64,000 nucleotides of DNA from an uncultured Roseobacter sp. (GTDB lineage Bacteria > Pseudomonadota > Alphaproteobacteria > Rhodobacterales > Rhodobacteraceae). A program made the translations under genes and the position numbers. A model generated the notes under the pieces. The model was not told where the DNA came from, did not search any database, and worked only from the letters and a program-made list of their open reading frames with translations. The DNA lies in contig NZ_CANLYL010000009.1 of assembly GCF_947495275.1 (NCBI RefSeq), positions 62,001 through 126,000 on the forward strand, in the 5' to 3' direction. Positions 22,732 to 53,693 of the stretch are shown here, in pieces (the stretch's first letter is position 1; every line of letters begins with the position of its first letter).

Positions 22732-24087
22732 TCAGATCGCGGAGGCGTGCCCGGCCCCAGACATGTCATAGGCGTCGAAATGCCGCGCGATGATCCGCGT
22801 CAGCGGTTGTCCCTCGGGCAGAATGCGTAGACCGCGTTTTGTGACCTGTACGATATCGCCGAACTGCTCCGCTGCATCTTTGATCAGGCGCGTAACCTGT
22901 CCTTCGCTGTTTGGGAAACGGGTCGTGATATCGGAGGTTTGTACTTCGAAATCGCACATGATTGCTTCGATGATACGGGCACGAAGCGTATCCTGACCGG
23001 AAAAGACATGCCCTCGGGCCGTTGAAAACCTGCCACTCTCAATAGCTTTGACATGAGCAGAGGTTGCGGCGGCATTTTGGGCATAACCCTGCGGGAATTT
23101 TGAAATCGCCGACGCGCCAAGCCCAACCAGCGTGTCTGCAGGGTCATCGGTATATCCTTGGAAATTTCGTTTGAGTTGGCCCGCTTTCGCAGCGATGGCC
23201 AATCGATCCTCGGGCGTTGCGAAATGGTCGATACCGATCTGATGATATCCATCCCACTCGAAAAGTTTGCGCGCGGTCTCAAAGAGGCGCAGTCGGTGTT
23301 CCGGTGCTGGCAATGCGTCGCTGGGGATCAATGACTGGCGCCGCGCCATCCAGGGCACATGCGCGTACCCAAAAAGTGCCACGCGATCGGGGTTGAGGGT
23401 CAGTAATTTCTGCACCGATGTGGCGATCCGTGCTTCGTCCTGGTGGGGCAATCCGAAAAGGATGTCAGCATTCAGCGAGGTGATGCCTGATTCTCGCAGC
23501 ATTTCCACAGCCGTCCGGGTGATTCCAAACCCCTGAATGCGGCCAATGGTGGTTTGCACCTCGGGGTCGAAATCCTGCACGCCGATAGAGGCGCGCGTCA
23601 TGCCGACATCGGCCAGCGCCCTGACCCGTTCCGCATCGATTTCGTTGGGGTCGATTTCGACCGAAAACTCCGCATCGGGCGCGAGTGGCACCACGTGCTC
23701 TACCGCCTGAGCGAGATCGCGGATCATTTCCGCGGACAGAAGCGTTGGCGTACCCCCGCCCCAATGCATCCGGCTCAGCCGAACACCGCTGGGCAGGCAA
23801 CGCCCGAGCAAGGCAATTTCCTTCTTCAAGGTATTCAGGTAGCCTGCAACGGGGGACAGGGTTTTCGTGCCTTGGGTTCTACAGGCGCAGAACCAGCACA
23901 GCCTGCGGCAGAAGGGTATGTGCAGGTAGAGCGATATCTGGCTGTCCGGGGCGATGGACCTGATCCATTCTTGCATCTGGTCAGATCCTATCGCAGGTTT
24001 GAACTGAGGCGCTGTCGGGTAGCTTGTGTAGCGGGGGACCATCGCGTCAAAAAGCCCCAGCTTTGCTAATTTGGATGTCATAGGCAT
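22732..24087 (-). CDS. hemN: Oxygen-independent coproporphyrinogen III oxidase
   Basis: A 451-residue radical SAM enzyme that converts coproporphyrinogen III to protoporphyrinogen IX without oxygen. The [4Fe-4S] cluster motif is C60, C64, C67 in FCRRLCWFC, with the extra C69 of true HemN. GGGTPTLL and the C-terminal HemN domain follow. The length matches genuine HemN rather than HemW. It is divergent from fnrL with an FnrL box between them. The start may be 24087 or the ATG at 24081; see the regulatory site entry. It complements aerobic hemF located about 15 kb away. Confidence 0.93.
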   Translation of the reverse strand: MPMTSKLAKLGLFDAMVPRYTSYPTAPQFKPAIGSDQMQEWIRSIAPDSQISLYLHIPFCRRLCWFCACRTQGTKTLSPVAGYLNTLKKEIALLGRCLPSGVRLSRMHWGGGTPTLLSAEMIRDLAQAVEHVVPLAPDAEFSVEIDPNEIDAERVRALADVGMTRASIGVQDFDPEVQTTIGRIQGFGITRTAVEMLRESGITSLNADILFGLPHQDEARIATSVQKLLTLNPDRVALFGYAHVPWMARRQSLIPSDALPAPEHRLRLFETARKLFEWDGYHQIGIDHFATPEDRLAIAAKAGQLKRNFQGYTDDPADTLVGLGASAISKFPQGYAQNAAATSAHVKAIESGRFSTARGHVFSGQDTLRARIIEAIMCDFEVQTSDITTRFPNSEGQVTRLIKDAAEQFGDIVQVTKRGLRILPEGQPLTRIIARHFDAYDMSGAGHASAI

Positions 24088-24121
24088 GGTGATGGCTTAA
24101 AGTGCCAAGTGTCGACTGACC

Positions 24122-24135
24122 TTGATACAGATCAA
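24122..24135. promoter_or_regulatory. FnrL/FNR box between hemN and fnrL
   Basis: Perfect dyad TTGATACAGATCAA (TTGAT-N4-ATCAA). For hemN the centre (24128.5) is about 39-41 bases before a start point near 24087-24089, with TTTAAG at 24101-24096 as a possible -10, so a class II activated promoter is likely. For fnrL the site is only 26 bases before the ATG, which suggests autorepression. Confidence 0.88.
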
Positions 24136-24160
24136 AAAAAGGATCGCGCAATTGCAACAG

Positions 24161-24895
24161 ATGGTGTCGCCTGCTTTCAAAAACTGCGAGGAGTGCCCTA
24201 TTCGGCATCGCGCTGTTTGCGCAAAATGCGACAGCGATGAATTGGCGTTGTTGGAAGACATCAAGTACTACCGGAGTTTCAGCGCCGGCCAGCATGTGAT
24301 GTGGGCCGGAGACCAGATGGATTTCGTGGCCTCAGTGGTCTCGGGTGTGGCTTCCTTGACGCAGACCATGGAAGACGGGCGCACGCAGATGGTCGGATTG
24401 CTGTTGCCGTCTGACTTTGTCGGGCGACCGGGTCGCAATATTGCGACCTATACTGTTACGGCAACATCAGATCTGTTGATGTGTTGTTTTAGGCGCAAAC
24501 CATTCGAGCAGATGATCGACAGCACACCGCATGTGGCGCACCGCCTGCTGGAAATGACCCTGGACGAGTTGGATGCGGCGCGAGAGTGGATGCTTGTTCT
24601 TGGGCGTAAAACCGCGCGGGAAAAAATCGCCAGCCTGTTGTCGATCATTGCGCGCCGGGACGCTGCGCTGGGTACTGCGAACCCGGGCAAGGCCTTGACG
24701 TTCGAACTACCACTGACACGGGAAGCCATGGCCGATTACCTTGGATTGACGCTTGAGACCGTCAGCAGACAAATGTCGGCTCTGAAACGCGATCAGATAA
24801 TCACGCTTTCGGGAAAGCGCCGGATTACCGTCCCTGACATGGATAAACTGCTTTTGGAAGCCGGTGATGATAGCGATGGCGGCTTCCTGATCTGA
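24161..24895 (+). CDS. fnrL: Oxygen-responsive Crp/Fnr-family regulator FnrL
   Basis: A 244-residue global anaerobic regulator. N-terminal cysteines C9, C12, C20 and C23 (NCEEC...CAKC), with a later Cys pair near LLMCC, can supply the oxygen-labile [4Fe-4S] ligands. A cyclic-nucleotide-like fold and C-terminal HTH follow. The recognition helix ETVSRQ has the Glu and Ser-Arg that in FNR read TTGAT. I start at ATG 24161 because the upstream in-frame TTG (24122) is part of the FNR box itself. It lies between hemN and the cco genes, as in Rhodobacter. Confidence 0.9.
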   Translation: MVSPAFKNCEECPIRHRAVCAKCDSDELALLEDIKYYRSFSAGQHVMWAGDQMDFVASVVSGVASLTQTMEDGRTQMVGLLLPSDFVGRPGRNIATYTVTATSDLLMCCFRRKPFEQMIDSTPHVAHRLLEMTLDELDAAREWMLVLGRKTAREKIASLLSIIARRDAALGTANPGKALTFELPLTREAMADYLGLTLETVSRQMSALKRDQIITLSGKRRITVPDMDKLLLEAGDDSDGGFLI

Positions 24896-24934
24896 CAGGA
24901 ACTTCCCGGAGCCGCCACCGCGCGCCGAAGCCCG

Positions 24935-25771
24935 TTAGTGGGCCATGAATACCGGAGCTTTTGCATGTTCCAGCATTTCCCGGGTGGCGCCCCCCAGGAC
25001 CGCCTCGCGAAACCGGGAATGACCATATCCTCCCATCACCAGCATCTGCGAGTTGGTTTCAGTAACGTGTCGCTGAAGTCTTTCACTGACTTTCGCGCCA
25101 CCGCGAGACATCACCTGAATGTCGCAATTCACGCCGTGACGGGACAGCATGACCGCAAGCGCGCCGCCCGGATCGGACCGGTCGGCAGCGTGCTCGGGCG
25201 GATCAATGATCGCGATGTGCACACTCTTTGCGGCGGACAATATTGGCATCGCGGATCGCACCGCGCGCAATGCCTCTGAACTTTCGTTCCACCCAATGAC
25301 CACATTTTCCGGAATGGCTTGTCCTTGGGTATCGGGCACCACGATTGTCGGGCAGGCGGCATCAAAGAGCATTGTTTCAAGAATCAGCGTGTCCCCGTCA
25401 TGGCTGTCGTCGCGGTAGGGAAGTGGCACCACGCAGAGATCGGCGAACCGGGCAGTGCGTGTCAGGGGCCGCCCGGCATCTGCCAAAGTGGCAACTGCGT
25501 TTGAGGCATTCCATCGCAGCGTCGCTTTTTCCAACCACGCTGCCGTCTGAACACGGACGGCTTCAGCCTTGTTGTGCGCTTCTTCGATCGCTGCCTGCAT
25601 GATGATGGCGTTGGCACCGGCCTCGTAATAGTTAGCGCGTGAGCGATCGACCCCAAGGCACATAACCTCAAGATGAGCGTCATGAGACTCCGCAAGGGCC
25701 GCTGCCTGCTCCAGAGCCGCCTTGTTCGACTCAAACGAAGTTATGGCGGTGAAGATCGTTTTGTAAGACAT
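24935..25771 (-). CDS. Tandem universal stress protein (UspA family)
   Basis: A 278-residue protein with two UspA-like halves. The first opens with YKTIFTAITSFESN. The second ends with the nucleotide-binding-type segment MGGYGHSRFREAVLGG, near G-x2-G-x9-G(S/T). It is predicted to be cytoplasmic. The ATG at 25771 follows an AGGA-containing site; an upstream in-frame start at 25789 is less likely. It sits between fnrL (convergent) and ccoN (divergent). The FnrL box at 25864 is shared with ccoN and may also control this gene. Confidence 0.88.
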   Translation of the reverse strand: MSYKTIFTAITSFESNKAALEQAAALAESHDAHLEVMCLGVDRSRANYYEAGANAIIMQAAIEEAHNKAEAVRVQTAAWLEKATLRWNASNAVATLADAGRPLTRTARFADLCVVPLPYRDDSHDGDTLILETMLFDAACPTIVVPDTQGQAIPENVVIGWNESSEALRAVRSAMPILSAAKSVHIAIIDPPEHAADRSDPGGALAVMLSRHGVNCDIQVMSRGGAKVSERLQRHVTETNSQMLVMGGYGHSRFREAVLGGATREMLEHAKAPVFMAH

Positions 25772-25863
25772 GATCCTAGTCCTTTCCAAACGGGTATGTT
25801 CGGTATCATACTCGCGTTACGTGTGCGGACATTGATCAGTGTCAGCCAAATTGCCTGCTGCGC

Positions 25864-25877
25864 TTGATGCAGATCAA
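25864..25877. promoter_or_regulatory. FnrL/FNR box between the usp gene and ccoN
   Basis: Perfect dyad TTGATGCAGATCAA, centred 98.5 bases before the ccoN ATG and 99.5 before the usp start. It is the likely FnrL activation site of the cco operon and possibly of the divergent gene. Confidence 0.88.
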
Positions 25878-25968
25878 AGCGGCGCAGTGCGTTGCCGGGC
25901 AAAACCCGGCCATACCACGAACATCCGCGTGTCTTTGCGCGTGGACAACCGGAAGGGAACCCGGAGCA

Positions 25969-27582
25969 ATGAATACCGGAACACAGAACTATGTGAAGCT
26001 GGTGGTCCTGGCACTTGCCACGCTGTTTGCGATGATTGCCGCAAGTTACGCGCGTGATCTGGCCTATCAGGTCCATATGGTGATTTTCATGATCGTGGGC
26101 GCAGGCCTGTTTCTGACGACCCTGCGCGCAACGGATGAACCGATAAAGCCAATACCGACCAATGAATATTTTGACAGCGTGGTGCGCGCGGGCGTCATTG
26201 CCACTGCGTTCTGGGGTGTTGTCGGGTTTCTGGTCGGTGTGGTGATTGCTTTCCAACTGGCGTTCCCAAGCCTGAATTTCGAGTGGGCGGAGGGCTATGC
26301 CAACTTTGGCAGGTTGCGACCGCTGCACACATCGGCGGTGATTTTTGCCTTTGGCGGTAATGCTTTGATCGCCACATCCTTTTTCGTCGTGCAACGCACA
26401 TCCGCCGCGCGGCTCTGGGGCGGCAATCTGGGATGGTTCGTCTTTTGGGGGTATCAGCTTTTCATTGTTCTGGCTGCAACGGGCTATCTGCTCGGCGGTA
26501 CGCAATCAAAAGAATACGCTGAACCCGAATGGTACGTGGATATCTGGCTGACCATCGTCTGGGTCGCCTATCTGGCCTGTTTCCTCGGCACTATCGTCAA
26601 GCGTAAAGAGCCACATATCTACGTGGCGAACTGGTTCTTTCTGGGCTTCATCGTGACTGTTGCGATGCTGCATATCGTCAACAATATTTCCATCCCGGTC
26701 TCCATCTGGGGCAGCAAATCGGTGCAGGTCTTCTCAGGCGTGCAGGATGCGATGGTGCAATGGTGGTACGGCCACAACGCTGTCGGCTTTTTCCTGACCG
26801 CAGGTTTTCTGGGCATGATGTATTACTTCGTGCCCAAACAGGCCGAACGCCCCGTGTTCTCCTACAAGCTGTCGATCATCCACTTCTGGGCGCTGATCTT
26901 CCTCTACATCTGGGCGGGTCCGCACCATCTGCACTACACAGCGCTGCCCGATTGGGCATCAACTCTGGGCATGGTTTTCTCGATCATCCTTTGGATGCCA
27001 AGCTGGGGCGGTATGATCAACGGTCTGATGACGCTGCAAGGCGCCTGGGACAAGCTGCGCACTGACCCGGTGCTGCGGATGATGGTGACCAGCCTGGCCT
27101 TCTACGGCATGTCTACATTTGAGGGGCCGATGATGTCGATCCGTTCGGTCAATTCGCTGTCGCATTACACCGACTGGACCATTGGCCATGTGCATTCCGG
27201 TGCCCTGGGCTGGAACGGTCTGATCACATTCGGTGCGCTCTACTATCTTGTGCCGGTGCTTTGGAAGCGCGAGCGTCTCTATTCCCTGTCGCTGGTCAGC
27301 TGGCACTTCTGGCTCGCCACAATCGGCATCGTGCTTTACGCCGCATCCATGTGGGTGACCGGCATCATGGAAGGTCTGATGTGGCGCGAAGTCGATGCAA
27401 ACGGCTTCCTTGTGAACAGCTTTGCCGACACCGTCAGCGCCAAGTTCCCGATGTATGTGGTGCGCGGGCTGGGGGGCGTCCTGTTTCTCTCCGGTGCGGT
27501 GATCATGTGCTATAACCTATGGATGACTGTTCGAGCTGCGCCTGCCAAGGCCGCTCTCGGCACAGCCGTCCCCGCTGAATAA
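25969..27582 (+). CDS. ccoN: Cytochrome c oxidase cbb3-type, subunit I (CcoN)
   Basis: A 537-residue, roughly twelve-helix catalytic subunit with heme b and the heme b3-CuB centre of the high-affinity cbb3 oxidase. Conserved histidine segments include [31 protein letters not shown] and [15 protein letters not shown]. The ATG at 25969 is preceded by CCGGAG; the frame is open back to the FnrL box but that part is leader. It reduces oxygen to water at the inner membrane and is the first gene of ccoNOQP, under an FnrL box. Confidence 0.96.
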
Positions 27583-27593
27583 GGAGGGGCGAG

Positions 27594-28319
27594 ATGTCGA
27601 TCCTGTCAAAACATAAGTTCATCGAAACCAACGCCTCCCTTCTGCTGATCCTCAGCTTTCTGGTGGTCACGATCGGGGGGCTGGTGCAGATCGTACCGCT
27701 CTTCTATCTGGAAAATACCATCGAAAAGGTGGAGGGCATGCGTCCCTATTCCCCTCTCGAACTCACCGGTCGGGACATATACGTCCGCGAAGGCTGCTAC
27801 GTCTGTCATAGCCAGATGATCCGCCCGATGCGCGACGAGGTGGAGCGTTACGGTCACTACTCGCTGGCCGCCGAATCCATGTATGACCACCCGCACCAGT
27901 GGGGCTCGAAACGTACCGGGCCGGATCTGGCGCGTGTCGGCGGGCGGTATTCGGATGACTGGCACCTTGATCACCTGCGTGACCCGCAATCGGTTGTGCC
28001 GGAATCGATCATGCCGAAATACGGGTTCCTGGAGCGCACGCTGCTGGAAAGCGAGCACATCGAGGACCTGCTGAAAACGCACGCGATTGTCGGGGTGCCT
28101 TATACCGATGAGATGATCGAAGCGGCGGCGGCAGATTTCCGGGCGCAGGCTGATCCAGACAGCGACTACGATGATATGCTCGAACGCTATCCCGGTGCGC
28201 AGGTGCGCAACTTCGATGGCCAGCCGGGTATTTCAGAGGCGGATGCGCTGATCGCCTATCTGCAGATGCTGGGCACATTGGTCGATTTCTCGACGTTCAC
28301 CCCAGACGCAAACCGGTAG
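27594..28319 (+). CDS. ccoO: Cytochrome c oxidase cbb3-type, subunit II (CcoO)
   Basis: A 241-residue monoheme cytochrome c subunit. An N-terminal membrane anchor (about 14-36) is followed by the heme site [17 protein letters not shown] (CxxCH, about 66-70). It passes electrons to CcoN on the periplasmic side. It starts 11 bp after ccoN with an AAGGAGGGG site. Confidence 0.95.
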
Positions 28320-42040: not shown

Positions 42041-43081
42041 ATGACGATCTCACGGAAATCATTTCTGAATGTGGCGGCGGCTGCGGCGTTGGCCTTCGGC
42101 TTTGGGGCCGCGCCCGCGTTGGCTCAGGAAGTTACCCTGCGCCTGCACCAATTCCTGCCGCCGCAAGCCAATGTGCCCAAGCTGGTTCTGGATGTCTGGG
42201 CAGATAATGTCGAGAAAGACAGTGGCGGGCGCATCAAAGTCGAGCGTTATCCGTCCATGCAACTGGGTGGCAAGCCGCCAGAGCTGATGGATCAGGCCAT
42301 TGACGGCGTCGCCGATATCGTCTGGACCGTTGTCGGCTATACACCGGGCCGGTACCCATCGACGGAAGTGTTCGAGTTGCCCTTCATGATGACAAACGCC
42401 CGTGCCGCCTCCCGCGCGTATTGGGAAATGTTCGAAAAGCATATGAAGGATACCGAATTCAAGGATGTACACATCCTGGGGACCTGGGTGCATGGTCCCG
42501 GTTTGATCCACGCCAATAAAGAAGTTCGCAAGCCCTCTGACATGGAAGGTCTGAAAATCCGCGGTGGATCACGCTTGGCCAATGCTCTGCTGGAGAAGGT
42601 TGGCGCGACGCCGGTTGGCATGCCGGTACCTGCTGTGCCCGAGGGTCTGTCCAAGGGCGTGATCGACGGCACAACGATCCCGTGGGAGGTCACGGCTGCG
42701 CTCAAGATCCCGGAGTTGGTCAGCAACCATACGGAATTCACCGGCAATGCGCTCTATGTTCTGACCTTTGTTTTGGCGATGAACAAAGACCGCTATGATG
42801 GTCTGCCCGAAGATCTGCAAAAAGTGATCGACGATAACTCGGGATTGGAATTCTCGGTGTTTGCAGGTGGCACTCAAGCCGACAGTGACGGTCCGGCGCG
42901 CAAGGCTGCGGCCGATCGGGGCAACAACATCGTTACACTCAACGAGGCTGAAACCGCTGAGTGGAAGGCTGTGGCTGAACCGATTTATGCGGAATGGGTC
43001 GCTGACATGAATGAAAAAGGCATTGATGGTCAGGCGTTGATTGATGAAGCACGTATGCTCATCGACAAATACACCGAGTAA
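42041..43081 (+). CDS. TRAP transporter substrate-binding protein (DctP family)
   Basis: A 346-residue periplasmic receptor of a tripartite ATP-independent transporter. The signal peptide runs about 1-28 (cleavage near ALA-QE). The mature protein opens with VTLRLHQFLPPQANVPK and contains the DctP-type GLKIRGGSRL region, whose Arg usually binds the ligand carboxylate. It is encoded with small and large permease genes and upstream of benzoate-CoA ligase, so an aromatic or other organic acid is a reasonable but unproven substrate. A terminator-like hairpin follows. Confidence 0.9.
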   Translation: MTISRKSFLNVAAAAALAFGFGAAPALAQEVTLRLHQFLPPQANVPKLVLDVWADNVEKDSGGRIKVERYPSMQLGGKPPELMDQAIDGVADIVWTVVGYTPGRYPSTEVFELPFMMTNARAASRAYWEMFEKHMKDTEFKDVHILGTWVHGPGLIHANKEVRKPSDMEGLKIRGGSRLANALLEKVGATPVGMPVPAVPEGLSKGVIDGTTIPWEVTAALKIPELVSNHTEFTGNALYVLTFVLAMNKDRYDGLPEDLQKVIDDNSGLEFSVFAGGTQADSDGPARKAAADRGNNIVTLNEAETAEWKAVAEPIYAEWVADMNEKGIDGQALIDEARMLIDKYTE

Positions 43082-43094
43082 GCTTTGAAATCTG

Positions 43095-43136
43095 AAAAAG
43101 ACCCGCGGCAAGCAGCACTTGCGGCGGGTCTTTTTT
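43095..43136 (+). terminator. Terminator-like hairpin between TRAP receptor and permease genes
   Basis: GACCCGCGGCAAG / CTTGCGGCGGGTC inverted repeat with one mismatch and a TTTTTT tail, 13 bases past the receptor stop and 21 bases before the permease start. It probably reduces permease relative to receptor expression. Confidence 0.8.
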
Positions 43137-43157
43137 GATCTTGGACGGGGATGACAG

Positions 43158-43727
43158 ATGCATCAGTTGATAAAGCTGCTCGCGCGGGGCACGGCGGTTG
43201 TTGGTGGCCTCGTGCTGGTCGGGCTGATTGTCCTCACCACCCTGTCGATCATCGGACGTTCGCTGAACAAGATGCTCCACTCCGACCGTGCAGAGGGCCT
43301 GCTTGGTGGTTTCACCCAAACCTTGCTGGATCTTGGTATTGGTGAGGTCAATGGCAGCTATGAATTGCTGGAAGCTGGGGTCGCCTTTGCGATTTTCTCC
43401 TTCTTTCCCGTTTGCCAGCTTTACGGCGGGCATGCGACCGTCGATATATTCACGTCAAAACTGCCGTCGAGGGTCAACAGGGCCATCGTCGCGTTTTGGG
43501 AGGTCGTTCTGACGGCGACGCTGATCCTGATCAGCTGGCGGCTCTACGAAGGGATGCAGCGCTACATTGGCAATGGCGAAACCACCCTGTTTTTGCAATT
43601 TCCGGTCTGGTGGGCCTATGCGGCAAGCTTCGCGGCGTCGACTGTGACCTGTATCGTCGCGCTGTATTGTGCCGTGATGCGGATTGGCGAGAGCCTCTCG
43701 GGGCGCGTACTCTTGCCAACCTCATGA
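43158..43727 (+). CDS. TRAP transporter small permease (DctQ family)
   Basis: A 189-residue four-helix membrane protein (helices about 14-34, 72-92, 106-126, 145-168). It is the small subunit linking receptor and large permease in TRAP systems. It begins 76 bp after the receptor gene and ends 10 bp before the large permease start. Confidence 0.88.
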   Translation: MHQLIKLLARGTAVVGGLVLVGLIVLTTLSIIGRSLNKMLHSDRAEGLLGGFTQTLLDLGIGEVNGSYELLEAGVAFAIFSFFPVCQLYGGHATVDIFTSKLPSRVNRAIVAFWEVVLTATLILISWRLYEGMQRYIGNGETTLFLQFPVWWAYAASFAASTVTCIVALYCAVMRIGESLSGRVLLPTS

Positions 43728-43737
43728 GGATCTGACT

Positions 43738-45057
43738 GTGAGTAATCTCGAGCTGGGCTTCATGTCATTCCCAATCCTGCTGCTCATGGTGTTTTTGCGC
43801 GCACCAATCGGGCTTGCCATGTTGCTTTGCGGCTTTGCGGGGTGGTATTTTGCCATGGGTGGCAACCCCAATGTGTTGCTGAACAAGCTCAAATCAGAAA
43901 CCTACACACAGTTTTCGAGCTATTCGCTTTCCATCATCCCGATGTTCCTGCTGATGGGCCAGTTTGCGACCCTCTCGGGCATGTCCAGTTCGCTGTTCAA
44001 AGCGGCGGAGAGCTTTCTGGGGCACAGACGTGGCGGGGTGGCTATGGCCGCAGTGGGGGCCTGTGCAGGCTTCGGGGCGATTTGCGGATCGTCTCTGGCG
44101 ACAGCCGCAACCATGTCCAAAGTCGCCCTGCCGGAGTTGCGCCGCTACGGGTATTCAGGCGGTTTTTCGACGGCCACACTGGCGGCTGGCGGCACGCTGG
44201 GCATCCTTATCCCGCCCTCCGTGATCCTCGTCATCTACGCCATTCTGACCGAACAGAATATTGCAAAGCTGTTCCTGGCCGCATTTGTTCCGGGCATCCT
44301 CGCGGCGATCGGTTACATGTTGACCATCTCCCTTTACGTAAGACTGAACCCGAAATCTGCCGGGACAAGGCCCCCGCAACCCATGTCCGAACGCTGGGCC
44401 GCGCTGGCCGAAACCTGGCCGGTGCTGGTGATTTTCGGCCTTGTGGTCGGTGGCATCTATCTTGGTTGGTTCACGCCCACCGAAGGATCAGCCATCGGTG
44501 CGGCGGGCACAGGGCTCGTGGCGCTGGTCTCGGGCAGCCTAAACTGGGCCGTTTTCCGCGACAGCCTTCTGGGTACCGCCAAAACGACTGCCATGATCTT
44601 CTTCATTGTACTAGGCGCCAGCTTCTACAACAGCTTCCTCGCCCTTTCCGGCGTGCCGCAATACATGGCGGACTGGGTCCTCAGCCAGGGCTTCAGCCCG
44701 TGGTTCGTACTGTCGATCGTTCTCATCTTCTATCTCGTGTTCGGGTGCCTGATGGACAGCCTGTCAATGATTTTGCTCACCGTCCCGATCTTTTTCCCTG
44801 TTATCTCTGCGATGGATTTCGGAATGTCGCCGGAACACGTGGCGATCTGGTTTGGCATTTTGGTGTTGATCGTCGTCGAGGTCGGGTTGATCACGCCACC
44901 AGTGGGCATGAACCTCTTCATCATCAATGCGATGGACCGTGAGACCCCGATGACGGAAACCTATAAGGCCGTGATGTTTTTTGTGGGGTCAGATATTCTG
45001 CGTGTCGTTATTCTTGTGATGTTCCCAGCAATTACCTTGTTCCTGATCCCCGCCTGA
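43738..45057 (+). CDS. TRAP transporter large permease (DctM family)
   Basis: A 439-residue permease of about twelve helices, the ion-coupled transport subunit. Conserved segments include LLMGQFATLSGMS, the GFGAICGSSLATAATM block, GGTLGILIPPSVILVIY, and near the end MDSLSMILLTVPIFFPV and EVGLITPPVGMNLF. The GTG at 43738 follows GAGGATC; an in-frame upstream ATG overlaps the small permease. It is the last gene of the transporter, 132 bp before bclA, whose promoter region carries TGCA sites. Confidence 0.92.
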   Translation: MSNLELGFMSFPILLLMVFLRAPIGLAMLLCGFAGWYFAMGGNPNVLLNKLKSETYTQFSSYSLSIIPMFLLMGQFATLSGMSSSLFKAAESFLGHRRGGVAMAAVGACAGFGAICGSSLATAATMSKVALPELRRYGYSGGFSTATLAAGGTLGILIPPSVILVIYAILTEQNIAKLFLAAFVPGILAAIGYMLTISLYVRLNPKSAGTRPPQPMSERWAALAETWPVLVIFGLVVGGIYLGWFTPTEGSAIGAAGTGLVALVSGSLNWAVFRDSLLGTAKTTAMIFFIVLGASFYNSFLALSGVPQYMADWVLSQGFSPWFVLSIVLIFYLVFGCLMDSLSMILLTVPIFFPVISAMDFGMSPEHVAIWFGILVLIVVEVGLITPPVGMNLFIINAMDRETPMTETYKAVMFFVGSDILRVVILVMFPAITLFLIPA

Positions 45058-46731: not shown

Positions 46732-47552
46732 GTTTTCGTTGGGCGGCGGACGAAGGACAAACGCTCGCAGCAGGTGACGCGGCTCTGGAATACAGGTGCT
46801 ACGGTCCACCTCCTGGATCGACGCCGACGCTCGTGTTGCTGCATGAAGGATTGGGATCGGTTGATCTTTGGCGTGATGTCCCCCGAAAAATTGCCGAAGC
46901 CACCGGACTTGGTGTGCTCGCATATTCGCGACAAGGGCATGGGCGGTCTTCGCAAGCAAGCCTGCCGCGTCCCCTGGATTACATGACGCGCGAAGCGGAG
47001 AATACGCTCGGAAAGGTGCTGGATGCTGCGGGCATTACGGCAACCATTCTTCTGGGCCATTCTGATGGGGCGACGATCGCTGGCATTTATGCCGGTTCAG
47101 TCAGCGATATGCGGGTCAGAGGTCTGATCCTTATCGCGCCGCATTTTTTCACTGAACCGATCGGGCTTTCCGCGATACGTGCTGCGGGAAAGGATTTCGA
47201 CGCCAGTGACCTGCGTGCGAAGCTGTCCCGATACCACGATGATGCCGACGCTCTCTTCCGGGGATGGCACGACGTTTGGGTTCATCCGGAATTTGAAACC
47301 TGGAACGTGGCGGATGCGATTGATCATTGGCGCATTCCGGTTCTTGCTCTTCAGGGGACGGATGATCCCTATGGCAGTCTGGCGCAGATCGACGAGATCG
47401 AGACCCGTGTCTATTCTCCGCTTGAACGCGTGATCCTGCGCGATTGCGGGCATGCACCGCATCTGGAGCGCCCGGAAGAAACAAAACGGGCGATTGTCGC
47501 ATTCTGCGCCCGACTTGTGCGACTGGAGCAGGAAGATGTCTTGCTCTCCTGA
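46728..47552 (+). CDS. Alpha/beta hydrolase in the benzoate operon
   Basis: A 274-residue alpha/beta-fold hydrolase. The nucleophile elbow is GHSDG (110-114, Ser112), the oxyanion region is LHEGLGS (39-45), and the catalytic histidine is in CGHAPHLERPEE near residue 240. The GTG start overlaps the bclA stop and it overlaps the next gene by 17 bases. It may hydrolyse a stray CoA or ester intermediate of benzoate breakdown; this is inferred only from context. Hydrolases of this fold are common next to box genes. Confidence 0.85.
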   Translation: MSFRWAADEGQTLAAGDAALEYRCYGPPPGSTPTLVLLHEGLGSVDLWRDVPRKIAEATGLGVLAYSRQGHGRSSQASLPRPLDYMTREAENTLGKVLDAAGITATILLGHSDGATIAGIYAGSVSDMRVRGLILIAPHFFTEPIGLSAIRAAGKDFDASDLRAKLSRYHDDADALFRGWHDVWVHPEFETWNVADAIDHWRIPVLALQGTDDPYGSLAQIDEIETRVYSPLERVILRDCGHAPHLERPEETKRAIVAFCARLVRLEQEDVLLS

Positions 47553-47997
47553 TCTTCCCGAAGGTGTCCCGCGCCCCCCGCATGTCTACGTGCCGGGCAA
47601 GACGGACCGACACCCGGAAGACTGGTTCGACGGGATCAAGGCAAGCGCGTTGACAGCGAAGACCCCGCAGGCACTGCATCAGACCGCGGCATTCCAGACC
47701 GGTTTGGCGTATCTGGAGGCTGGTTACTTCTGGGAGTGCCATGAAGTGTTGGAGGCTGTTTGGCTTCAGACAGTTGTTCCAAGCGCGGAGCGTGACATGG
47801 TGCAGGCCCTGATCCAACTGGCCAACGCGCAGCTGAAACTGTTGATGGAGCGCCCGCGCGCAACCCTGCGGTTATGCGAAACGGTTGGCGCGCATTTGGA
47901 GCGCTGCCCCCAGAGTGCTGTAACGCTGGGGCTTTGGCCGGCTGCTATCCGTGCGCAGATGGAAGATGTTCAGAAACGCGCGGATGATGAATTATAG
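47536..47997 (+). CDS. DUF309 family protein
   Basis: A 153-residue helical protein of the DUF309 family. The family signature is AYLEAGYFWECHEVLEAVW (about 55-73), with conserved His and Glu. The function is unknown. The ATG at 47536 directly follows an AGGAAG site and lies inside the end of the hydrolase gene. The stop is immediately followed by the TGCA site ahead of boxC, so the gene appears to end the bclA operon. Confidence 0.82.
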   Translation: MSCSPDLPEGVPRPPHVYVPGKTDRHPEDWFDGIKASALTAKTPQALHQTAAFQTGLAYLEAGYFWECHEVLEAVWLQTVVPSAERDMVQALIQLANAQLKLLMERPRATLRLCETVGAHLERCPQSAVTLGLWPAAIRAQMEDVQKRADDEL

Positions 47998-48032
47998 TGC
48001 ATTAAAAGTTGGGATATTGTCCGATTTTTGCA
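47993..48032 (+). promoter_or_regulatory. Candidate BoxR operator region upstream of boxC
   Basis: TATAGTGCATTAA (47993-48005, overlapping the DUF309 stop) and a second TGCA at 48029-48032, 31 bases on. The first is identical at 12 of 13 positions to the site ahead of bclA. A TTGGGA (48009-48014) and CTTATA (48033-48038) could form the promoter. Confidence 0.6.
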
Positions 48033-48117
48033 CTTATATGTGCTTTACGGCCAAACATACGGAACTATAATTCATTATGAAGCAGAATGGCGTCCTCTGG
48101 CGCTAGAAGGTGCCAAA

Positions 48118-49776
48118 GTGACCAAACACATCGATTTTCAGGTCGACCCGAATTCAATGAAGCACTGGCGCGTCAGTTATGACGGCGCAGTGGCCAACCT
48201 TTACATGGATGTCGACGAGCAAGGCGGACTTTTTGAGGGATATGAGCTCAAATTGAACTCTTATGATCTGGGGGTTGATATTGAGCTTGCGGATGTCGTT
48301 CAGCGCATGCGGTTCGAACACCCTGAGGTTAAGGTTGTTGTCTTGCGCTCTGCGAAGGACAAGGTTTTTTGCGCAGGCGCCAACATCCGTATGCTGGGAG
48401 GGGCTGCCCATGCGCATAAGGTGAACTTCTGCAAATTCACCAATGAAACGCGCAATACTTTCGAAGCAGCGCTCCAGGACAGTGGCCAGAACTATATCTG
48501 CGCTGTGAGGGGTGCTTGTGCAGGTGGCGGCTATGAGCTGGCGCTGGCGTGCAATCACATCATGCTGACGGACGACAGCACCTCGTCTGTGGCGCTGCCG
48601 GAGGTGCCATTGCTCGCCGTTCTGCCGGGAACGGGCGGGCTGACGCGTGTGACCGACAAGCGCAAGGTGCGGCGGGATCTGGCGGATGTCTTTTGTTCGG
48701 TTGAAGAGGGGGTCAAAGGCAAGCGGGCGCTGGATTGGAAGCTGGTGGATGAGGTGATACCGAACTCCAAATTTGATGAAACCGTTGCCGCACGCGCTCA
48801 GGAGCTCGCCGCTAATTCAGCCAAATCTGATGTCCCGCAGGGCATTGAGCTTAAGCCCCTGTCTCGCAGGATAGGCGAAAGTGACGTGCAATATTCAACC
48901 GTGGGCATTGAGATCGACCGGGGCGGGCGACGTGCGATCATCACGATCCAGGGGCCAAAGGAGGCCGCACCTGCTGACATGAACGCCTTCACAGCCGAGG
49001 GGTCGGACGCATGGTTGCTGCGCTGTGCGCGCGAATTAGATGACGCGATCCTGCACCTTCGAACCAACGAAGATGAATTGGGTCTGATCGAATTCCGGAC
49101 ACAAGGTGATCCTGATCTGGTGTGCGCTCATGAGGCGGTTTTACTGACCGACAAGGAGCACTGGCTAGCAAATGAGGTTCTGTGTCTATGGAAGCGCGTG
49201 CTCAAGCGCATTGATATGACCTCGCGCAGCCTCGTGGCGATGATCGAACACGGTTCGTGTTTCGCTGGGGTTCTGGCGGAAATTCTCTGGGCGGTGGACC
49301 GCAGCTACATGATGCTGGACGATTTTGAGGATGACGATCGTCCGATGGCTTCGGTCATGCTGAGTGAAGCCAATTTCGGTCAATACCCGATGGGCAATGA
49401 TCTCAGTCGCCTCGCGACCCGTTTCTATGGTGACCCGGAACAGGTGGAAACTCTGAAGACCCGTACCGGAGAGCTTTTGGAGGCAGAGGACGCAGAGACG
49501 CTGGGTCTCGTTACTTACGCCTATGACGACATCGACTGGGACGACGAAGTGCGTCTTTTCCGCGAGGAGCGTGCGAGTTTTTCGCCCGATGCGATGACGG
49601 GGCTTGAAGCAAATCTGCGGTTTGCCGGGCCGGAAACGATGGAAACGCGTATTTTTGGTCGACTCACAGCTTGGCAAAACTGGATTTTCCAGCGCCCGAA
49701 TGCCGTGGGTCCTGAAGGTGCGTTGCAGCGATACGGGTCCGGCTTGCGGGCCGACTACAATATGCAGCGCGTCTGA
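48118..49776 (+). CDS. boxC: 2,3-epoxybenzoyl-CoA dihydrolase (benzoyl-CoA-dihydrodiol lyase)
   Basis: A 552-residue enzyme of the crotonase superfamily that opens the ring of 2,3-epoxybenzoyl-CoA to 3,4-dehydroadipyl-CoA semialdehyde plus formate. The N-terminal half has the crotonase oxyanion blocks KVFCAGANIRML and RGACAGGGYELALAC; the second half is a divergent crotonase-like repeat. Length fits BoxC (about 550). The GTG at 48118 has AGAAGG upstream and starts the similarity; an earlier frame from 48028 is leader. boxB follows after 44 bp. Confidence 0.92.
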   Translation: MTKHIDFQVDPNSMKHWRVSYDGAVANLYMDVDEQGGLFEGYELKLNSYDLGVDIELADVVQRMRFEHPEVKVVVLRSAKDKVFCAGANIRMLGGAAHAHKVNFCKFTNETRNTFEAALQDSGQNYICAVRGACAGGGYELALACNHIMLTDDSTSSVALPEVPLLAVLPGTGGLTRVTDKRKVRRDLADVFCSVEEGVKGKRALDWKLVDEVIPNSKFDETVAARAQELAANSAKSDVPQGIELKPLSRRIGESDVQYSTVGIEIDRGGRRAIITIQGPKEAAPADMNAFTAEGSDAWLLRCARELDDAILHLRTNEDELGLIEFRTQGDPDLVCAHEAVLLTDKEHWLANEVLCLWKRVLKRIDMTSRSLVAMIEHGSCFAGVLAEILWAVDRSYMMLDDFEDDDRPMASVMLSEANFGQYPMGNDLSRLATRFYGDPEQVETLKTRTGELLEAEDAETLGLVTYAYDDIDWDDEVRLFREERASFSPDAMTGLEANLRFAGPETMETRIFGRLTAWQNWIFQRPNAVGPEGALQRYGSGLRADYNMQRV

Positions 49777-49820: not shown

Positions 49821-51272
49821 ATGCTCGATCTCATCAACGTCAGTTACGACAGTCAAATCCCAAACAATGTCGGTCTGAGCTCGGATAAAAAAGTGCTGAA
49901 GGCGCTCGAAAAATGGCACCCGGGATATATCAACTGGTGGAACGATCTGATCCCTCAGAACTTTCAGGACAGCATGGTCTATCTGCGGACGGCTGTGTCC
50001 GTTGACCCCAAGGGATGGGCAAAGTTCGACTATGTGAAAATGCCCGAATACCGTTGGGGTGTCCTTTTGGCACCGGCGGTCGAGGACCGAAAGATCCCCA
50101 TGGGAGAGCACCACGGCGAACTGGCCTGGCAAGAGGTTCCGGGTGAGTATCGCAACATGCTCAAGCGCCTGATCGTCATCCAGGGTGATACCGAACCCGG
50201 CTCGGTTGAGCAGCAAAGGTTCCTGGGGCTTACGGCACCTTCGCTTTACGACATGCGCAATCTCTTTCAGGTCAATGTGGAAGAGGGTCGGCATCTTTGG
50301 GCGATGGTGTATTTGCTACAGAAGTACTTCGGCCGCGACGGTCGTGAAGAGGCAAATGATTTGCTCGTGCGGTCATCGGGCAGCGAAGAAGCGCCGCGGA
50401 TGCTGGGGGCGTTCAACGAAGAAACGCCTGATTGGCTGTCGTTTTTCATGTTCACCTATTTCACGGATCGCGACGGCAAGATGCAGCTGGAAAGCCTGGC
50501 GCAATCGGGTTTCGACCCGCTGTCGCGCACTTGCCGTTTCATGTTGACCGAAGAAGCACACCACATGTTTGTGGGCGAAACCGGTGTCGGGCGCACCATT
50601 CAGGCCACTCTGGAGGCTATGAACAAGCACGGGATCAGCGATCCCTTTGACATCAACAAGATCCGCGACCTCGGGGTCATTGATCTGCCGACGATCCAGA
50701 AGAAGCTGAACCTGCACTATACGCTCAGCCTTGATCTTTTTGGGCAGGAGGTCTCCACCAACGCCGCCAATGCGTTCAACGCCGGTATCAAGGGGCGTTA
50801 CATGGAGCAGCGCATTGACGATGATCACAAGCTGCAAGATGACACCTATGCCGTCACATCAATACAGGACGGTCAGATCGTCACAGAAGACGCGCCTGCG
50901 TTGACCGCCATAAACATGCGCTTGCGGGACGATTATGTGCGTGACGCGGCGGGTGGAGTTGGCCGCTGGAACAAGGCAATCGCCAAAGCGGGTGTCGCGT
51001 TTGAACTGAAGTTACCGCATGAAGGTTTCCACCGTCAGATCGGTGTCTTTTCGTCGGTTGCTGTGGACCCGTCAGGCAACATCATTTCGACCGCGGCATG
51101 GGAGGCACAGAAAGACGACTGGTTGCCGACAAAGGCGGATGGCGATTTCATTCAGTCTTTGATGGTGCCGTGCTACGAGCCGGGGCAGTACGCGTCCTGG
51201 ATCGCGCCACCGAAGGTCGGCATTGATAACAAGCCCGGAGATTTCGAGTATGTAAAACTGCACATGGCTTGA
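49821..51272 (+). CDS. boxB: Benzoyl-CoA 2,3-epoxidase, oxygenase component BoxB
   Basis: A 483-residue class I diiron oxygenase that adds one oxygen atom to benzoyl-CoA to give 2,3-epoxybenzoyl-CoA, using electrons from BoxA. The two ExxH iron-ligand motifs are EEGRH (154-158) and EEAHH (244-248), with further acidic ligands expected around 120-124 and 208-218. It starts with ATG behind AGGAGG. It is followed by a small Cys-rich ORF and boxA in one operon. Confidence 0.93.
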   Translation: MLDLINVSYDSQIPNNVGLSSDKKVLKALEKWHPGYINWWNDLIPQNFQDSMVYLRTAVSVDPKGWAKFDYVKMPEYRWGVLLAPAVEDRKIPMGEHHGELAWQEVPGEYRNMLKRLIVIQGDTEPGSVEQQRFLGLTAPSLYDMRNLFQVNVEEGRHLWAMVYLLQKYFGRDGREEANDLLVRSSGSEEAPRMLGAFNEETPDWLSFFMFTYFTDRDGKMQLESLAQSGFDPLSRTCRFMLTEEAHHMFVGETGVGRTIQATLEAMNKHGISDPFDINKIRDLGVIDLPTIQKKLNLHYTLSLDLFGQEVSTNAANAFNAGIKGRYMEQRIDDDHKLQDDTYAVTSIQDGQIVTEDAPALTAINMRLRDDYVRDAAGGVGRWNKAIAKAGVAFELKLPHEGFHRQIGVFSSVAVDPSGNIISTAAWEAQKDDWLPTKADGDFIQSLMVPCYEPGQYASWIAPPKVGIDNKPGDFEYVKLHMA

Positions 51273-51357
51273 TCCAAGTCAACGCAATCGTAACGCAGGC
51301 TGATCAAACTGGTCTGCGTCACCGCCAGTGACCTTTCGTTTCAAAGGAGACCGGACC

Positions 51358-51501
51358 ATGCAAGCTAAGACCATGAAAACGCCCGTGATGTTGCAACAAA
51401 ACTGCCTCGGATGCCCCGATTGTAAAGGCATATGCCGGGAGCTCTATGAACTTGCGTTTTTGCCGAATCTGGTGTTGCAGCGGTCCGCTGCCAGTCCATG
51501 A
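51358..51501 (+). CDS. 47-residue Cys-rich protein between boxB and boxA
   Basis: A short open frame behind a strong AAAGGAGA site 9 bases before the ATG. It encodes 47 residues with C16, C19, C22 and C26, spaced C-x2-C-x2-C-x3-C (NCLGCPDCKGICREL), followed by a hydrophobic-rich end. The spacing equals one half of a ferredoxin [4Fe-4S] site, but the usual proline after the last Cys is missing. The stop overlaps the boxA ATG (ATGA). I do not recognise a named family. An iron-sulfur or zinc role assisting the BoxAB oxygenase is a guess. Confidence 0.7.
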   Translation: MQAKTMKTPVMLQQNCLGCPDCKGICRELYELAFLPNLVLQRSAASP

Positions 51502-52694
51502 ACAAGCCGGTAAAACAACACCTAATTGATCCTGAAATCTGCATCCGCTGCTATACCTGCGAGATGACCTGCCCCATTGGCGCCATTCAACATGACAACA
51601 ACAATGTCGTCGTTGACCCTGATACCTGTAATTTCTGTATGGATTGTATCCCGGTGTGCCCCACCGGGTCGATTGACGAATGGCGCGTGGTGGAAACGCC
51701 CTACAGCCTTGATCAGCAATTCGACTTCGAAGAATTGCCAGAGCAGCAAGACATCGCGTCAGAACCTGACGCGCAGGATGACGGGATTGAAGCGCACGAC
51801 GATGTGGTCGCGGCTCTGCTCGCCGAAGCCCACAAGGGGGCGGGGGGGAAGGCCAAGGCACCGACGTCTGCGTCAAAACCTACGATCAACCTATACAATC
51901 TGGGCAATCCGGCGACGGCGAAAGTCCAAGGCAACTACCGTCTCACAGAAGCAGATAGTGATAGCGATGTCCGGCACATCATTCTTGATCTGTCGAATTT
52001 GCCTTTTCCTGTCCTGGAGGGTCAAAGCATCGGGATCATTGCACCTGGTCTGGATGACAAGGGGCAGCCTCACTTACCGCGCCTGTATTCCATCTCAAGT
52101 CCACGGGACGGCGAAAGGCCAGGTTTCAACAATGTTTCTCTTACGGTGAAACGTGAAGACAAAGGTGTCTGTTCGAACTACGTGTGCGATCTCGGAAAAG
52201 GCGACGAGGTTCAAATCACAGGGCCTTTTGGGTCTACGTTCCTGATGCCCTCCGATCCGAATGCGCATTTGCTGATGATCTGTACCGGCACCGGGTCCGC
52301 GCCCTTCCGCGGCTTTACCATGCGCAGGCAACGCGAATTACCGTCCGTAAAGGATAGTCTGACGCTGGTCTTTGGCGCGCGCAGCCCGCGTGATCTGCCT
52401 TATTTCGGGCCTCTCAAGAAGGTGCCAGACACCTTCATGCGCAAGGAATTTGCTTTTAGTCGCCAAAAGGATGCGCCTAAGCAATATGTGCAGGACAAGC
52501 TGCGTGAACAGTCGCAAACGATTGCCGAACTGCTTGGTGATACCCATACTCACATCTACATTTGTGGACTAAAAGCGATGGAGCAGGGTGTCGAAGAAGC
52601 CATGAGTGATATCGCAAGAGGGGTGGGTTTGCATTGGTCAGAGCTACGAGACCAAATGCGTGATGCGGGGCGGTATCACGTCGAAACTTACTGA
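51498..52694 (+). CDS. boxA: Benzoyl-CoA 2,3-epoxidase, reductase component BoxA
   Basis: A 398-residue iron-sulfur flavoprotein. It starts with two [4Fe-4S] motifs: C15, C18, C21, C25 and C44, C47, C50, C54. A linker (about 80-130) is followed by a ferredoxin-NADP reductase-like domain with PRLYSISSP for FAD and the GTGSAPFRGF NADPH loop. It passes electrons from NADPH to BoxB. The ATG at 51498 overlaps the stop of the small Cys-rich ORF. Confidence 0.93.
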   Translation: MNKPVKQHLIDPEICIRCYTCEMTCPIGAIQHDNNNVVVDPDTCNFCMDCIPVCPTGSIDEWRVVETPYSLDQQFDFEELPEQQDIASEPDAQDDGIEAHDDVVAALLAEAHKGAGGKAKAPTSASKPTINLYNLGNPATAKVQGNYRLTEADSDSDVRHIILDLSNLPFPVLEGQSIGIIAPGLDDKGQPHLPRLYSISSPRDGERPGFNNVSLTVKREDKGVCSNYVCDLGKGDEVQITGPFGSTFLMPSDPNAHLLMICTGTGSAPFRGFTMRRQRELPSVKDSLTLVFGARSPRDLPYFGPLKKVPDTFMRKEFAFSRQKDAPKQYVQDKLREQSQTIAELLGDTHTHIYICGLKAMEQGVEEAMSDIARGVGLHWSELRDQMRDAGRYHVETY

Positions 52695-52796: not shown

Positions 52797-53693
52797 ATGT
52801 CCATGTCTGAGGTAATCACCCAACCCAAAACCACGTCAAAGGTCATATCGCGTTTGGCGACGCGCGTGCGCGAGGCGCGCAAGGCGCAGGGATTGCCACG
52901 GCGTGCATTGTCAGAACGTTCCGGCGTCTCGCCGCGCTATCTGGCGCAGCTTGAGGCTGGCGAGGGGAATATATCGATTGCGTTGTTGCAGCGCATTTCG
53001 GATGCCCTTGATATCAAGATCGAACATTTGCTTTCAGAAAATGCGCCCTGGGATCTGGAGGTGCAGCGTGTGGCGATGCTCTACCGGCATGCGCCGGAAA
53101 GCGTCCAACAACAGGTTCGCGCTATTCTCGCACCGCAAAACCCTGCCACGCTCAGGGCAGGTCGCATCTGCCTGATCGGCCTGCGTGGCGCAGGCAAGAG
53201 CACTTTGGGCAAATTGGCGGGAGAGGCGCTTCGGCTGCCGTTTGTCGAATTGAACAAGGAAATCGAAACCCACACCGGCATGCCATTGTCCGAAGTGATG
53301 GCGTTTTATGGACAGGACGGTTACCGCGGTCTTGAAGCCGAAGCCGTGTCGCGGATTGTTGAACGCCACGACAAGGTGATCCTGGCGGTCGCGGGAGGGC
53401 TAGTGGCCGAAGAAAGAACCTATGCGCAGGTATTGGAGCGCTTTCACACCGTTTGGTTACGAACCTCGCCGGCTGAACACATGCAACGAGTGCGGGCGCA
53501 GGGTGACTTGCGACCCATGCGGAACAACCCGGCGGCAATGCAGCAACTCAAGGCATTGCTGCAGTCGCGTACGCCGCTTTACGAACGCGCAGAGGCCCGG
53601 ATCGATACCTCGAACAGGACCGTTTCGACCTCCTTGAATGATCTGATCAAGGTCATTGCGTCAAATCGGTTCCTGGAATTTCCCGGCGCATGA
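52797..53693 (+). CDS. boxR: Benzoyl-CoA-responsive transcriptional regulator BoxR
   Basis: A 298-residue regulator of the BzdR/BoxR type. An N-terminal HTH_3 DNA-binding domain (about 19-82, RRALSERSGVSPRYLAQLE) is fused to a shikimate-kinase-like domain with P-loop GLRGAGKST (128-136), which binds benzoyl-CoA as effector. In characterised systems it represses box genes until benzoyl-CoA accumulates. The next gene overlaps it by four bases. A second ATG at 52803 is an alternative start. Confidence 0.9.
   Translation: MSMSEVITQPKTTSKVISRLATRVREARKAQGLPRRALSERSGVSPRYLAQLEAGEGNISIALLQRISDALDIKIEHLLSENAPWDLEVQRVAMLYRHAPESVQQQVRAILAPQNPATLRAGRICLIGLRGAGKSTLGKLAGEALRLPFVELNKEIETHTGMPLSEVMAFYGQDGYRGLEAEAVSRIVERHDKVILAVAGGLVAEERTYAQVLERFHTVWLRTSPAEHMQRVRAQGDLRPMRNNPAAMQQLKALLQSRTPLYERAEARIDTSNRTVSTSLNDLIKVIASNRFLEFPGA

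Follow-up and report, generated by a model that had tools for sequence, protein, structure and literature searches.

A conserved four-cysteine small protein encoded beside boxB in Rhodobacteraceae, with a possible accessory role for the oxygenase

The small gene within the box locus

The window (the whole stretch of DNA that was analysed, 64,000 nucleotides) contains a box locus in which the genes flanking a small open reading frame were identified by curated NCBIfam models as boxC, boxB and boxA. The small frame runs on the forward strand from an ATG at 51358 to a TGA at 51501, and encodes a 47-residue product, MQAKTMKTPVMLQQNCLGCPDCKGICRELYELAFLPNLVLQRSAASP, which lacks histidine and carries four cysteines (C16, C19, C22 and C26) in the spacing C-x2-C-x2-C-x3-C. 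Benzoate-CoA ligase and hydrolase genes also lie upstream in the locus. The features considered here are as follows.

22732-28319: hemN, fnrL, a Usp-family gene, ccoN and ccoO (TIGR00538, NF045989, PF00582, TIGR00780, TIGR00781)
42041..45057, + strand: TRAP transporter genes dctP, dctQ and dctM, 5′ of the box genes
47452..47997, + strand: DUF309 gene of the box operon (PF03745)
48028..49776, + strand: gene 5′ of boxB (TIGR03222)
49821..51272, + strand: boxB, benzoyl-CoA 2,3-epoxidase oxygenase subunit (TIGR03225, E 8.7e-270)
51269..51282, + strand: candidate Crp/Fnr-type operator, TTGATCCAAGTCAA, overlapping the boxB stop codon, its first base 89 nt before the small ATG
51343..51350, + strand: ribosome binding site of the small gene, AAAGGAGA (from the sequence), with 7 nt between its end and the ATG
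51358..51501, + strand: type I four-cysteine small protein gene, C-x2-C-x2-C-x-G-x-C (conserved family, 52-row alignment)
51498..51501, + strand: ATGA overlap of the small-gene stop and the boxA start (from the sequence)
51498..52694, + strand: boxA, reductase component with ferredoxin and FAD/NADP domains (TIGR03224, E 2.4e-162; Pfam)
52797..53693, + strand: boxR-like regulator with HTH and shikimate-kinase-like domains (NF006015, Pfam)

The initial annotation had proposed a 47-codon frame with this cysteine spacing, a strong ribosome site and an ATGA overlap with boxA, and the sequence bore out each of these points. The SD match (AAGGAG) extends over 6 bases before the small frame, compared with only 3 bases before boxA. 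The window protein matched no Pfam model, DUF59 (the PaaD domain) included, at E up to 1, and a single weak stretch against NCBIfam (E 0.083). The DUF309 gene (47452-47997 in the window; 7932-8396 in locus L162) was found in 20 of the 38 long Rhodobacterales box loci.

A conserved family that follows boxB

The small frame is a genuine gene, and its product belongs to a conserved protein family. Used alone as a database query, the window protein returned a single further sequence, which comes from Roseobacter fucihabitans and shares 81% identity with it, and a profile search of 5.8 billion proteins listed 80, including the window's own. Most of these are nameless, and those with names are mainly called "hypothetical protein". 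The suggestion that gene callers easily miss the gene is therefore correct in part. Residues C16, C19, C22, C26, P36 and G24 (the last between the third and fourth cysteines) are invariant in 52 aligned copies; 69 of 74 members have exactly four cysteines, and the tail P-x2-[VIL]-[LIVT], found in 72/74, extends the conservation well past them. The proteins are 47-60 residues long, and the start codon is ATG in 52 of 56 rows, with near-copies still included. dN was lower than dS in all 11 pairs compared, with ratios of about 0.1 to 0.6, several of the dS values being near saturation. No Pfam or NCBIfam model matched the family above its cut-off, in agreement with the annotators' failure to recognise it. 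The open-access literature, seen in part and with subscription papers mostly outside the scope, yielded no report of the small protein or of a boxB-flavodoxin gene pair (PMC12008989, PMC9765128). The four-cysteine small protein of many marine Rhodobacteraceae is thus apparently undescribed.

The distribution of the gene was examined in 394 Rhodobacteraceae genomes of 393 genera, which, as members of one family, are not independent, though nearly all belong to different genera. A tblastn search with a limit of E 0.1 gave matches in 88 genomes, many weaker ones among them being noise, and a profile of types I and II (see below) gave matches in 72 of the 394 at E up to 0.001. The 69 with at least 31 bits were kept, and G001, G376 and G255, at 24.8 bits or less, were dropped. 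boxB was found in 82 genomes. In 61 of these the small gene stands immediately 3′ of boxB, compared with any member at all in 8 of the 312 boxB-less genomes (Fisher p 3e-44, for 394 genomes of one family). The 61 comprise 57 cases found by tblastn, in which the small-gene match begins 92-286 nt past the boxB match, three type II copies and one frameshifted copy; no small gene was found in the other 21, three of whose loci (G069, G102 and G344) were unread. The copy of G009 is frameshifted.

The named boxB loci, the 80 most similar to the window BoxB out of a longer ranked list, carry the gene in 35/50 cases from Rhodobacterales, in 0/27 from other orders (no Burkholderiales among them) and in 0/3 unplaced cases; one of these last 30 loci, L110, shows only 124 bases after boxB. 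The proposed search for the cysteine pattern at related box clusters thus found it conserved within the Rhodobacteraceae, and found none in the other orders sampled. Since the gene was not found in these loci outside Rhodobacterales, it is not a general part of BoxAB, and a universal BoxAB subunit is ruled out by these 30 loci together with the 21 boxB genomes that lack it. When 385 genomes of the class and 398 of the phylum were searched by profile, with up to 16 candidates scored per genome and with few of the genomes perhaps having boxB, no match beyond the window's family exceeded 25 bits, and tblastn with P0005 found no match in 72,556 plasmid records. On a BoxB tree built by a quick method, the small-gene label needs 21 changes, at least 10 of them forced by well supported branches. 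Losses, gains or transfers have therefore been common, and the tree does not demonstrate that the gene entered the operon only once.

Loci were read in 79 of the 82 boxB genomes (G069, G102 and G344 being left out, and L026 and the frameshifted G009 copy being counted). boxB is followed by boxA in 70 of these loci, by a flavodoxin gene in five and by neither in four, and the small gene is present in 54/70, 3/5 (all type II) and 4/4, respectively. Among the 71 non-identical loci that have both genes, 52 show a single-base overlap between the small-gene stop and the start of boxA. In G213 and G080, boxA is on another contig, and the only small gene found adjoins boxB. Because it is kept at boxB where boxA lies elsewhere, the small gene follows boxB rather than boxA.

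A flavodoxin gene stands in boxA's place after boxB in loci L045, L049, L051, L072, L075 and L090 and in genomes G056, G139, G240, G302 and G378; it was recognised by Pfam (PF00258) in L049 and L090, and elsewhere by tblastn likeness of 48-100%. The flavodoxin appears from this gene order to replace BoxA. It may be the electron donor of BoxB in these strains, since boxA was found nowhere in the five flavodoxin genomes. The small protein there is of type II, with the motif C-x3-C-x2-C-x-G-x-C, which was seen in three flavodoxin genomes and three named Tateyamaria loci; type II was met only where the flavodoxin gene replaces boxA, and never with boxA. A profile-profile comparison by hhalign that included 6 type II rows relates types I and II to each other (probability 90.6%, E 1.3e-6). 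Type II has 49 database members and forms one clade on the BoxB tree. The small gene thus lies between the oxygenase gene and the likely donor gene even where the donor is a flavodoxin (3/5). In L042 and L201 (both G390, on contigs that do not differ in length) and in L226 (G220), boxB and the small gene occur with no flavodoxin gene following, and boxA was not found in either genome (G220 being 75% complete). The boxB-boxA gap of L175 (G017) holds a very divergent four-cysteine frame, CARCGGCEKGC, with a GTGA overlap with boxA; it falls under the profile threshold and is possibly a third type.

A Crp/Fnr-type site and the copies without boxB

A sequence of the form TTGAT-N4-RTCAA was first noticed upstream of several copies of the small gene. 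The pattern TTGATC-N5-CAA, which was drawn from sites already seen, occurs within 320 nt of 13 of 96 distinct copies, the window's included, in every case 73-89 nt before the start; the exact pattern is not present in the other 83. The shuffle mean is 0.02, and the reverse strand gave 1/96. Matches of the TTTTGAATACGTCAAACT type, from a mismatch scan, proved to be the end of the boxB coding sequence and are outside the 13. The FnrL consensus, (T/C/A)TGA-N6-TCAA, is independent of these data and was found at 60-110 nt in 7/96 copies and in none in the next four 50-nt bins. PMC4634722 derives this consensus from ChIP-seq in Rhodobacter capsulatus, and the window site at 51269-51282 fits it. For context, PMC5398030, consulted along with PMC9873259, places Fnr sites at 67.5 and 96.5 bp from the start codon on its upstream side. 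Four of the 13 copies are boxB-less (G266, G193, G1121 and the second copy of G383), out of 10 boxB-less among the 96, and the G266 site, TTGATCCATGTCAA, is letter-identical to the R. sphaeroides uspA site given in PMC4634722.

TTGATC-N5-CAA was found in 11 of 90 gaps with the small gene and in 0 of 59 without it (strand taken from tblastn), a weak control, since the latter total 5,707 bases and the former 26,338. The position bins are the better control, because gaps without the small gene have a median of 68 nt. The window itself encodes FnrL (NF045989, E 1e-135). TTGA-N6-TCAA occurs four times in the window against 1.35 expected, a count reached by 7 of 100 shuffles and hence not unusual; the three sites other than that of the small gene are at fnrL/hemN, at usp (uspA)/ccoN and inside an ORF. 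TTGATC-N5-CAA occurs five times on both strands against 1.02 expected, once inside dctP. The Fnr-type sites at 24122-24135 and 25864-25877 offer a natural calibration for the small-gene operator. The weight of the case lies on position and recurrence before the small gene, and not on the number of sites in the window.

Eight boxB-less genomes carry the small gene, and none of them has boxA. Five of the eight, together with the second copy of G383, look from their gene content like depleted box loci from which boxA, boxB and boxC have been lost. A pair of genes for an alkZ-like protein and a LacI regulator (PF06224, PF00356) flanks the small gene in G389, G106, G193 and G239, and is likewise found 3′ of the box operons of L041, L043, L046, L052, L071 and L073. 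This glycosylase and LacI pair, on the opposite strand at the 3′ end of the box locus, marks the site of the missing box genes (also in L164, L166, L167 and L169). G266, a congener of the window genome, has kept the TRAP genes (DctP 85% identical), the DUF309 gene and the small gene, and lacks boxB and boxA. The second copy of G383 lies in the order TRAP, short-chain dehydrogenase, acyl-CoA synthetase, small gene, boxR-like gene; this operon (L168, 4342-10241) is without boxABC and may serve another aromatic acid. The copies of G332 and G217 have no recognised box neighbours, and that of G143 is frameshifted, with dctM 3 kb off on the other strand. The genus of G106 includes one species with the full locus, two with the small gene only, beside dctM, and two with neither, and in that of G193 both genomes examined have the small gene without boxB (G1119 and G1121, from these two genera, being 85% and 75% complete).

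The retention of the gene in eight boxB-less genomes makes a role restricted to BoxAB assembly insufficient. Because intact frames occur in several boxB-less lineages, the small protein probably has a use, client or role beyond BoxAB, with recent loss of boxB as a possible alternative account of these frames.

The metal site, competing readings and a proposed role

The motif C-x2-C-x2-C-x3-C is present in 73 of 74 members, with C-x3-C-x2-C-x3-C as its type II form, and suggests that the four cysteines make up one metal site. In [4Fe-4S] ferredoxin-type (Fer4) motifs, the fourth cysteine is as a rule directly followed by proline. Proline stands there in none of the 73 motif-bearing members. No member matched a Fer4-clan Pfam model above its gathering score; at E up to 0.01, Fer4_18 matched 7/74 members (best E 0.0011), and Fer4_21 and Fer4_9 one each, and P0005 scored 18.5 bits against Fer4_18, compared with a cut-off of 27. 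Profile matches in the PDB were mainly to PsaC halves (E 0.0063 at best), with a few ferredoxins at E 0.09 or weaker, and some members are labelled "4Fe-4S ferredoxin-type" in UniRef. Duplication of the BoxA ferredoxin domain as the origin of the gene is ruled out by an hhalign probability of 2.2%. Judged by these comparisons, the small protein is not a plain ferredoxin, and the resemblance to one ferredoxin cluster half noted in the initial annotation is one of cysteine spacing. A [4Fe-4S] cluster would be the most likely occupant of the site, or else zinc, a choice that is a guess, since no model matched above its cut-off and the ferredoxin proline is missing.

Several other readings of the gene were weighed. 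That the frame is open by chance, as its shortness and usual lack of a name might suggest, is next to inconceivable, and is ruled out by the invariant residues and the purifying selection of a frame that is conserved in many genera. A leader ORF acting in cis, whose translational coupling controls boxA while the peptide itself does little, would account for the one-base overlap in 52/71 loci and for the 3-base SD match of the window boxA. This is a very improbable explanation, and as a main reading it is ruled out by the conserved tail (72/74), by the two genomes in which the gene adjoins boxB while boxA is elsewhere (G213 and G080), and by the copies that lack boxA or boxB. SD matches of at least 4 bases precede boxA in 22/52 coupled loci compared with 26/45 without the small gene, so that a weaker SD sequence before coupled boxA is not supported (p 0.16). 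A half-size ferredoxin, perhaps dimeric, that brings electrons to BoxB is quite improbable as well. The spacing of one ferredoxin half, the PsaC-half matches and the UniRef names speak for it, but the proline is missing throughout (0/73), the likeness to the BoxA ferredoxin domain is 2.2%, type II breaks the first C-x2-C spacing, and BoxA already has two [4Fe-4S] clusters, according to PMC4498308.

The main rival to a helper of the oxygenase is a small protein that senses or regulates how aromatic acids are taken up and broken down, in which a four-cysteine metal or redox switch would act on the TRAP transporter, the boxR-like regulator or a general low-oxygen process, and would merely be encoded in the box locus. 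The small gene lies near TRAP genes without boxB in G266, G106, G1119, G193, G1121 and the second copy of G383, and 4 of the 10 boxB-less copies carry TTGATC-N5-CAA. Against this, the gene is far commoner at boxB than elsewhere, G389 and G239 show no TRAP match in the 17 kb read, and among the 38 long Rhodobacterales loci, where the stretch often stops short of TRAP, TRAP genes accompany 6/26 type I, 0/3 type II and 2/9 small-less loci. The TRAP transporter as the partner was ruled out by this lack of correlation within box loci, subject to the same shortness of the stretches read. We regard a regulator or general low-oxygen protein as rather unlikely.

The reading that we tentatively favour, at somewhat less than even confidence, is that of a small cytosolic four-cysteine protein that serves BoxB and its donor as a metal or redox accessory, and for which the need is greater when oxygen is low. 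The evidence against a plain ferredoxin, and PaaD as the nearest working analogue, are the grounds for this preference. The protein would help the diiron oxygenase and its donor through supply of iron or clusters, repair or redox protection, much as is suspected of PaaD with the related PaaABCE oxygenase; it would be expressed more strongly at low oxygen through FnrL, and would have a further client or role besides BoxAB. Electron transfer, assembly and protection, the roles that had been proposed from the gene's place in an oxygenase operon, are all inference. The position between boxB and the likely donor gene, together with the frequent overlap with boxA, agrees with that proposal, whereas a function confined to BoxAB assembly leaves part of the distribution unexplained. 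It is conceivable, though doubtful, that the gene represents a new family of oxygen-responsive four-cysteine partners dedicated to a diiron epoxidase and its donor, with two types for two donors (BoxA and flavodoxin) and a low-oxygen FnrL switch, kept after loss of the oxygenase. The tie to boxB and type II, the boxB-less copies and the Crp/Fnr-type site go beyond the initial annotation. The presence of a further conserved protein just here in the operon, and natural strains with flavodoxin for BoxA or with no oxygenase, make its role directly testable.

Type I shares its C-x2-C-x2-C-x3-C spacing with one half of a [4Fe-4S] ferredoxin (PsaC, the Fer4 families and the BoxA N-terminus), from which it differs in lacking the proline after the fourth cysteine, a second motif and a profile match above cut-off. 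MmoD and DmpK, with a proposed role in maturation, resemble the small protein in being encoded by short ORFs beside diiron oxygenase genes, and neither is known to have a four-cysteine motif. PaaD has about 170 residues and a DUF59 domain, whereas the small protein has 47-60 residues, matches no Pfam model above cut-off and was met in Rhodobacterales only. PaaD (DUF59/SufT-like) is, like the small protein, an accessory encoded with a BoxB-related diiron epoxidase; PMC4498308 describes it as needed in vivo, and not in vitro, by the related PaaABCE epoxidase, and as suspected to act in iron insertion.
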